DNA of 55,478 bases from an uncultured bacterium (lineage in GTDB: Bacteria; Cyanobacteriota; Vampirovibrionia; Gastranaerophilales; Gastranaerophilaceae): positions 1 through 55,478 of the forward strand of contig CASERN010000004.1 of assembly GCA_949290355.1 (NCBI GenBank), given 5' to 3'. Shown piece after piece: positions 18,515-41,353 of this stretch (position 1 is the stretch's first letter; every line of letters begins with the position of its first letter). The position numbers were made by a program, and so were the translations under genes. The notes below the pieces were generated by a model. It did no database searches. It worked only from the letters and a program-made list of their open reading frames with translations, and was not told the origin of the DNA.

Positions 18515-18562
18515 ATCCAAAATAATAATTGTTAAACATTTTCAATCAATTACCCTATTTGG

Positions 18563-38534: not shown

Positions 38535-38780
38535 TTTTCTACAATAATTGTAGAAAACTACATGTAAATATGTAGAAAATTCATGAGTTTTCTACAATAA
38601 ATTATAAGAATTAAAGTTTTCTACAAATTTGGATATTTTATTATATAATTTTCTACAATTTTTTCTACATTCAAAAGCGAGAGAGAGCAATAGTTTCATG
38701 TAGTTTTCTACAAATATTGACAGCTTATTATTATTATTAAATATATTAATATATTAATTAATATAATATATAATATAAAT
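38535..38780 (+). other. Putative chromosomal replication origin (oriC)
   Basis: Eight exact copies of TTTTCTACA occur in 178 bp. Plus strand: 38535, 38588, 38617, 38649, 38661 and 38704. Minus strand: 38549-38557 and 38571-38579. The nonamer differs from the TTTTCCACA-type DnaA box at one position. The last box is followed by AATATTGACAGC, then (TTA)5 at 38725-38739 inside a 56-bp stretch without G or C (38725-38780). This matches box cluster, short GC-containing segment, DnaA-trio-like repeat and unwinding element. dnaN begins 107 bp further on. dnaA is not in this window. Confidence 0.75.
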
Positions 38781-38886: not shown

Positions 38887-40008
38887 ATGAAATTTGTTGT
38901 AAAAAAAGAAGATTTATATAATGGTATAAAAATAGTAGAAAGAGCTACTTCAATGAAAGCATTGCAACCAGTGCTTTTAAATATTTTAATTGAAACCATT
39001 GATAAAAGTACAATAAAACTCGTTGCAACAGATTTAGACTTGACTGTAATTGCAAAAGTTGATGCTCAAGTAGAAGAAGAAGGAAAAATTACATTACCTT
39101 CAAAAACTCTCAACGAAATAGTTTCCAAACTTGGAGATAAATTAATTACATTTGAAATGAATGAAGGTGAAACATCTGTACATATCACTTGTCAAAACTC
39201 AAAGTTTGATATTATAGGTATTTCAGCTTCTGAATTTCCTCCAGAGTTTTCTATGATTGATGTAAAAGACGAAGAAGGTTTTGAGATTGAAATAAGACCT
39301 TTTGTGAAAGCCGTAAAACAAGCAGGTTTTGCAGCTGCAAGTTATGAAACTAGTAATCTATTGTCAGGTATTGTATGTGATATTTCTGGTAATATATTGG
39401 AAATTGCATCTACTGACGGTAATCGTTTAGCAAGAGTTCGTGAAACTATTGATAATAAGGATAATCACTCAAAACAATTAATAATTCCTTCAAAGACATT
39501 GAATGAATTTATTAAAATGAGCAGTTTTATAGATGAAGATTCAGTAAAAATATATACAGAAAAATCAAAAATAATAATTAAATCAGAAACCACAACAACA
39601 ATTTCAAGATTATTAGAAGGACAATATCCAAAATATAATCAGTTAATTCCTGCAGAAAGTCCAAAAGAAGCTTTGGTAAATGTTTCTCAAATGATATCAG
39701 CGCTAGAACGTGTATCAATTATGGTTAACGAAAAAACAAGTATTGTAAAATTGGAATTTAGCCATAATACATTAAAATTAACAGCAGACACTCCAGATTC
39801 AGGTAAATCAGAAGAAAATATTGATATTGATTACGCAGGAGAAGAATTGACAATTGCATTTAATTATAAATTTGTATTGGAAGCTTTGAAAAACATTGAT
39901 TCTGATGAGGTTAAAATCGGACTAAATACACCATTGTCTGCTACTATGTTCAAACCAAACAGTGAAGAAGATTATGTTTGCTTGATTATGCCTGTTCAAA
40001 TAAGATAA
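38887..40008 (+). CDS. dnaN: DNA polymerase III beta subunit (sliding clamp)
   Basis: A 373-residue ring-forming clamp that tethers the replicase to DNA. It has three repeated clamp domains: MKFVVKKEDLYNGIKIVERA to about residue 120, ATSYETSN-like second domain (AGFAASYET region, LLSGIVCDISG), and a third ending in the typical CLIMPVQIR C-terminus. GGGGAG lies 8 nt before the ATG; TATAAT at 38847-38852 is a likely -10. Position next to the putative origin agrees with origin-linked dnaN in many bacteria. Confidence 0.96.
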   Translation: MKFVVKKEDLYNGIKIVERATSMKALQPVLLNILIETIDKSTIKLVATDLDLTVIAKVDAQVEEEGKITLPSKTLNEIVSKLGDKLITFEMNEGETSVHITCQNSKFDIIGISASEFPPEFSMIDVKDEEGFEIEIRPFVKAVKQAGFAAASYETSNLLSGIVCDISGNILEIASTDGNRLARVRETIDNKDNHSKQLIIPSKTLNEFIKMSSFIDEDSVKIYTEKSKIIIKSETTTTISRLLEGQYPKYNQLIPAESPKEALVNVSQMISALERVSIMVNEKTSIVKLEFSHNTLKLTADTPDSGKSEENIDIDYAGEELTIAFNYKFVLEALKNIDSDEVKIGLNTPLSATMFKPNSEEDYVCLIMPVQIR

Positions 40009-40495: not shown

Positions 40496-41353
40496 TTATC
40501 CATTAATAGCAAAATAAACTTCTTTGAGACGCTTTTTGCTAATATGTGTATACAATTGAGTTGTAGAAACATTACTGTGTCCTAAAAGTTCTTGTACAAC
40601 TCTCAAATCAGCTCCGTTTTCTAATAAATGAGTTGCAAAACTATGACGTAGTGTGTGTGGAGAGATTGCTTTATGTAATTTTTTTCCCTGTTCATGGATA
40701 AATGTGTAGATTTCCTGACGGGTTACTTTTTTGCCTTTATCGTTTATTAAAAGATATTTTGTCTGCAAGTTGTATTTTGAAATTAAATAATCTCTTTCGG
40801 GTAAAAAATCTTTTATTGCTTGAATAGCTTTTTTACCCAGCGGAACAAGTCTATCTTTTGAACCTTTACCTGTGCATTCTAAAAATTTACTTTTCAAATC
40901 ATAATCAGTAATTTTCAAATTAGCAAGTTCAGATACTCGAAGTCCGCATCCGTATAAAAGTTCAATAATTACCCTGTGAAGCTTTGATAAATCTTGATTT
41001 AGGATGTCATTAATTTCTTCAATTGTCATGACTTTTGGAAGTCTTTGAGGAATTTTAGGCTGCTCAAGAGTAAGTGCAGGGTTTGTTTTTGTAATTTCAT
41101 TTACACAAGTCCATTTGAAAAATCCTCGAAGAGATGCTATTTTTCTCATAATGCTTGTTGGTGAAAACTTCTTTTCATGCAGATTTCTTACATATGTATT
41201 GATTTTTGATCTTTGAATATCGTTAATATCAATATCTCCGCAAAAATCCATAAAATCGCTCAAGTCTCTTCTGTATGCTTCCAGTGTATTTTCTGCAAGA
41301 CCCTTTTCTATTTCTAAAAATTCAATATATTCTGATAAAACTTGAGTATTCAT
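40496..41353 (-). CDS. xerD: XerC/XerD-type tyrosine recombinase (second copy)
   Basis: A 285-residue recombinase. N-terminal core-binding domain (LAENTLEAYRRDLSDFMDF; MRKIASLRGFFKW) and catalytic residues Arg in GCGLRVSELANL, Lys in GKGSKDRLVPLG, HxxR in HTLRHSFATHLLE, His in LLGHSNVSTTQ and Tyr in LYTHI. With the protein at 10596 it should form the XerCD pair acting at dif; assignment to XerD is tentative. TAAAAT (plus-strand 41360-41365) ends 6 nt before ATG with no Shine-Dalgarno, so the transcript may be leaderless. Confidence 0.88.
   Translation of the reverse strand: MNTQVLSEYIEFLEIEKGLAENTLEAYRRDLSDFMDFCGDIDINDIQRSKINTYVRNLHEKKFSPTSIMRKIASLRGFFKWTCVNEITKTNPALTLEQPKIPQRLPKVMTIEEINDILNQDLSKLHRVIIELLYGCGLRVSELANLKITDYDLKSKFLECTGKGSKDRLVPLGKKAIQAIKDFLPERDYLISKYNLQTKYLLINDKGKKVTRQEIYTFIHEQGKKLHKAISPHTLRHSFATHLLENGADLRVVQELLGHSNVSTTQLYTHISKKRLKEVYFAING

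Follow-up and report, generated by a model that had tools for sequence, protein, structure and literature searches.

Whether a cluster of nonamers that lacks the CACA core can mark a replication origin is the question raised by positions 38535-38780 of the window (the whole stretch of 55,478 nucleotides analysed here, which is the entire contig C4) from an uncultured bacterium of the order Gastranaerophilales. A CACA core in the DnaA box and Asp433 in DnaA are regarded as near-universal among bacteria, and tools that locate origins take both for granted. The order belongs to the Vampirovibrionia (formerly Melainabacteria), the non-photosynthetic sister class of the Cyanobacteria. Compared with its relatives with respect to the array, its conservation and uniqueness, the link to dnaN, the geometry of a basal unwinding system (BUS), GC skew and a parallel change in DnaA, the region is very probably the chromosomal oriC of this bacterium, equipped with a BUS, and the box of the class has very probably shifted from TTWTCCACA, the form elsewhere in the phylum, to TTWTCTACA together with the replacement of Asp433.

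The box array upstream of dnaN

Eight exact copies of the nonamer TTTTCTACA, six on the plus and two on the minus strand, lie within 178 bp (38535-38712) and are followed by (TTA)5 and by dnaN, the start of which is 174 bp beyond the array in the window sequence (Table 1). The cluster of DnaA-box-like nonamers thus occupies the intergenic region adjoining dnaN, and an A/T-rich segment that could serve as unwinding element stands beside it. The gene at 38887 is identified as dnaN by TIGR00663 (294.5 bits against a cut-off of 137.65), and in a search of named genomes its product is 84-96% identical to proteins of Candidatus Gastranaerophilales MAGs. Half a kilobase (0.5 kb) past dnaN, on the minus strand (40496-41353), there is a tyrosine recombinase with the Pfam Phage_integrase and SAM-like N-domains, which might be XerC/XerD or the integrase of a mobile element.

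Position 6 is T in all eight boxes, where the canonical TTWTNCACA has C; TTWTNCACA is not found in the array region, and its counts across the window are at chance level. The word is also not the exact cyanobacterial TTTTCCACA, the nearest known type (PMC10225481), from which it differs by one base, at position 6. In the entire window TTTTCTACA occurs 11 times, compared with a mean of 1.93 and a largest count of 5 in dinucleotide shuffles of the whole window. When the local 300 bp were shuffled in the same way 2000 times, no shuffle held more than one copy of it, and of the 9-mers containing two or more G/C none exceeded three occurrences. The shuffles, along with the conservation described below, rule out chance in A/T-rich DNA as the origin of the array, which is the only place with close-spaced TTTTCTACA pairs in the genome (1.85 Mb, 99.96% complete). 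The initial annotation had counted these copies, their strands, the (TTA)5 and the 56 bp of pure A/T exactly as they are, and it was also right in judging the copies too many for chance and the word one change away from a cyanobacterial box.

The single-copy dnaA gene is located on contig C11, distant from dnaN, and is followed directly by an ORF that looks ruvA-like; its product is a TIGR00362 equivalog (479.6 bits, cut-off 343.9). No TTTTCTACA-type boxes were found upstream of it, nor, with two exceptions, upstream of dnaA in about 75 relatives. An origin at dnaA was ruled out, as the dnaA upstream regions are nearly box-free across the order.

Table 1. Features of the putative origin region and dnaN, in window coordinates; box, trio and unwinding functions are predicted.
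Feature	Position	Strand	Remarks
DnaA box TTTTCTACA	38535..38543	+	private to this lineage; not conserved in 51 relatives
DnaA box, conserved	38549..38557	-	98-100% at positions 1-8
DnaA box, conserved	38571..38579	-	100% at positions 1-8
DnaA box, conserved	38588..38596	+	96-100% at positions 1-8
DnaA box, partly conserved	38617..38625	+	exact TTTTCTACA; alignment of relatives
DnaA box, conserved	38649..38657	+	98-100% at positions 1-8
DnaA box, partly conserved	38661..38669	+	exact TTTTCTACA; alignment of relatives
Trio-proximal DnaA box of the basal unwinding system	38704..38712	+	layout in relatives; 100% by construction (alignment anchor)
12-bp spacer AATATTGACAGC	38713..38724	+	between last box and (TTA)5; length within published limit of 16
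DnaA-trios, 3'-(AAT)5-5' bottom strand, (TTA)5 top	38725..38739	-	homologous to CTACTACTACTA in other families
Pure A/T segment, 56 bp, presumed unwinding element	38725..38780		sequence
dnaN, sliding clamp	38887..40008	+	TIGR00663

Conservation, layout and GC skew in relatives

The cluster recurs upstream of dnaN, with the same order and orientation, in nearly all genomes of the genus and family that offer enough sequence. When 51 genomes were aligned with the last box as anchor, so that the full conservation of this box is given by construction, mean identity to the window sequence was 0.86 in box columns versus 0.48 in spacer columns; at positions 1-8, T6 included, five boxes are conserved to 96-100%, position 9 being freer. 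In 62 upstream regions, TTWTCNACA occurs 287 times with T6, four times with A6, twice with G6 and once with C6. The cluster is missing at dnaN in some relatives: at the loci L080, L105, L113, L115, L117 and L118 it was not found within 1.5 kb of the gene, and the DnaA proteins carry K433 or R433. Genome G033, with a DnaN region as in L105, has a box pair 5 kb upstream of dnaN, so that dnaN and the origin seem to be separated there. The 500 bp upstream of dnaN at L125 contain nine copies of ATTTTCCATT in a longer, dispersed-looking repeat without trios; this word is not box-like and was not counted as a DnaA box, being part of that repeat and lacking trios. The Gastranaerophilales sequences L103, L108 and L124 are titled Heliobacteriaceae bacterium and Fusobacterium sp. 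CAG:439, which are probable taxonomic mislabels in public records.

Published rules for the BUS allow up to 16 bp of spacer, most commonly 10-13, and require at least three NAN trios (PMC8287927); here the last box is followed by a 12-bp spacer and five AAT trios. A weak second box, ATATTGACA, may lie within the spacer at 38714-38722, along with a short GC step; the TTGACA part is poorly conserved in relatives. The succession of box, spacer and trios is found again throughout the order and in further families of the class. At the same place, other families of the order have, for example, TTTTCTACA-GAAAAACTCTTCCC-CTACTATTACTA or TTTTCTACA-AAAATTTGCCTGCT-CTACTACTACTA, in which CTACTACTACTA is the textbook DnaA-trio (3'-GAT-5'). 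Families f8, f10 and f13 have the layout with TTWTCTACA, and in some f8 genomes, among them G118, it is sited between dnaA and dnaN. A genome-wide search of 289 genomes of the class for TTTTCNACA (N at position 6), 8-18 bp and four YTA, a strict pattern that missed most of these genomes, gave 59 distinct BUS-like places in 57 genomes, with T6 in 55, A6 in four and neither C6 nor G6 in any. In the genome studied here the pattern occurs at exactly one place, 38704.

In relatives, the cumulative GC skew is largely consistent with an origin at the cluster. In G010, the best available relative, for which it was computed over 400 kb, the minimum falls at 273,730 and the box cluster at 273,555-273,719, about 11 bp apart. 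The agreement is rougher in G025, where the minimum is 18 kb from the cluster, and in G007, where the skew changes sign near the cluster and a later reversal gives a lower minimum 177 kb away. Among 44-64 relatives the mean skew is negative 4-9 kb upstream and positive downstream, to which conserved gene orientation may contribute. The 55-kb contig itself has its minimum at 18,555 and is too short and noisy to place an origin.

Domain IV of DnaA and the reading of the locus

Domain IV of the DnaA of this bacterium reads FESIAEFF-KKKHTTML against LPEIGDAFGGRDHTTVL in E. coli; E stands in place of P423, the loop is one residue shorter and D433 is replaced by K (E. coli numbering; KKKHTT), so that the canonical Asp433 is absent. 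In the wider order the segment is FPTIGDAFGGRKHTTIL, which corresponds to D433K with P423 retained. At position 433, most families of the class have K; f15 and a few others have R, f12 and G095 have T, G084, G123 and G139 have Q, G034 has N and f11 has G. Asp433 was absent from every DnaA of the class that was seen. Each of the 30 DnaA proteins retrieved from elsewhere in the phylum carries D433; at those loci position 6 is C in 74 boxes, T in five and A in three. As the losses of D433 and of C6 divide the class from the remaining phylum once, they count as one shared event and not as many. Comparison suggests the link of residue 433 to position 6; the published contact of D433 is with box position 7 (PMC8235120), to which position 6 is the neighbour.

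An array standing in the intergenic region right before dnaN might instead be the target of a protein that regulates transcription of dnaN or of the divergent small ORFs, and not the origin. This is very improbable, since the trios lie at a fixed distance past the last box across families, the skew minimum falls at the cluster in G010, the array is unique in the genome, and the word is one base from a cyanobacterial DnaA box, with a matching change in DnaA; the box pair 5 kb from dnaN in G033 further indicates that the cluster can persist without adjoining dnaN. Hardly more credible is that the region is oriC but TTTTCTACA belongs to a low-affinity or degenerate class of boxes, with DnaA still preferring TTWTCCACA. 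Other bacteria do have low-affinity ATP-DnaA boxes altered near position 7 (PMC8235120), but the 62 upstream regions contain one TTWTCCACA compared with 287 T6 copies, and TTWTCCACA is nearly absent at the trio-proximal box too.

With the region read as an oriC whose box is TTTTCTACA, we infer that DnaA binds the boxes, that the strands open within 38535-38780 and that residue 433 reads position 6. Domain IV would bind the double-stranded TTTTCTACA boxes, and the last box would seat a DnaA-ATP oligomer, which would extend over the 12-bp spacer onto the bottom-strand 3'-(AAT)5-5' and open the adjacent A/T-rich DNA, allowing helicase loading. In the high-affinity box of the Vampirovibrionia, position 6 would have changed from C to T alongside the replacement of Asp433, mostly by Lys. 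The initial annotation had anticipated much of this: clusters at dnaN do recur in nearly all close relatives, the skew minimum that it proposed as a check lies at the cluster in G010, and the BUS-like arrangement of last box, spacer and (TTA)5 that it described is conserved across the order and beyond. Its proposal that the lineage uses a box shifted to T6 is supported by the conservation and by 55 of the 59 class-wide BUS places, and changes of the kind it predicted for domain IV, including Asp433 to Lys, are present.

Known systems and variant box words

The class of mechanism is known; what appears new is the box word and its DnaA reader, for which no earlier description was found in the openly accessible literature. 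TTTTCTACA was not found together with DnaA in the papers of that literature that were searched, and searches there returned no origin studies of Gastranaerophilales, Melainabacteria or Vampirovibrio. The cyanobacterial oriC with its species-specific box TTTTCCACA (Ori-Finder/DoriC; PMC10225481) shares the phylum, the clustered nonamers, A/T at position 3 and the location near dnaA or dnaN, but has C6 where T6 is found here, and Asp433 is lost from the DnaA of this bacterium. The BUS of Bacillus subtilis (PMC6669920, PMC8287927) likewise consists of a box, a 10-16 bp spacer, trios with a middle A on one strand and A/T-rich DNA beyond; its box word is another, and its trios are 3'-GAT-5', whereas those in the family of the window are mostly 3'-AAT-5'. 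Epsilonproteobacterial boxes (PMC5043019) also combine a lineage-specific preference (T5) with variation in domain IV, although CAC(A) at positions 6-8 and Asp433 are kept there, while position 6 is changed and Asp433 lost here. Another divergent box that goes with a divergent domain IV is AAACCTACCACC of Thermotoga maritima (PMC10225481, PMC10316083), a 12-mer of different sequence; its DnaA has S433 and P435, reading NRSHPVV where E. coli has GRDHTTV.

If the reading of the locus is right, the whole sister class of the photosynthetic cyanobacteria departs from CACA and Asp433 and keeps the engine of box, spacer and trios, so that the essentials of origin opening (geometry and trios) could be told apart from what can drift (the word). 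The class would also offer a natural series for testing the joint change of an essential initiator and its site, and origins could be located in these gut bacteria, most of which are uncultured, as would be useful when growth rates are estimated from metagenomes.

Other words accompany other residues at 433. In f11 (G433 and N434; L376-L379, L434) and in f12 (T433), a clear box at dnaN was not found; domain IV of f11 reads GRGNSS versus GRDHTT, with both D433 and H434 lost, and its origin is perhaps still more divergent. G084 (L340, Q433) has three copies of TTATCAACA upstream of dnaN and G034 (L226, N433) has two of TTATAAACA. The word TTATTGACA, with G6, occurs in all three sampled genomes of f15 (R433; L336, L337 and L446, which are G145, G131 and G137), and in two of these a trio-like stretch follows closely. 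At L120 and L121 (63% DnaN identity) the module is kept with TTTTCTGCA, which is changed at position 7, beside TTATTATTACTATTA or TTATTACTATTATTA, and the DnaA proteins have R433, Q435 and T438 (KRHQTIT). The residue does not specify position 6 one to one, given the many A6 boxes of f9 and f10 in spite of K433 and R433 together with T6 in G142 and G033; the pairings may point to a partial recognition code between the residue and the box. It is conceivable, if rather doubtful, that residue 433 recognises position 6 (with 7) as one half of an evolvable pair: the loss of Asp433 at the base of the Vampirovibrionia would have freed the near-universal C6, and lineages would then have settled on Lys with T6 in most cases, Gln or Asn with A6 (TTATCAACA, TTATAAACA), Arg with G6 (TTATTGACA) or, in one Gastranaerophilales lineage, Arg433, Gln435 and Thr438 with G7 (TTTTCTGCA, again beside trios).
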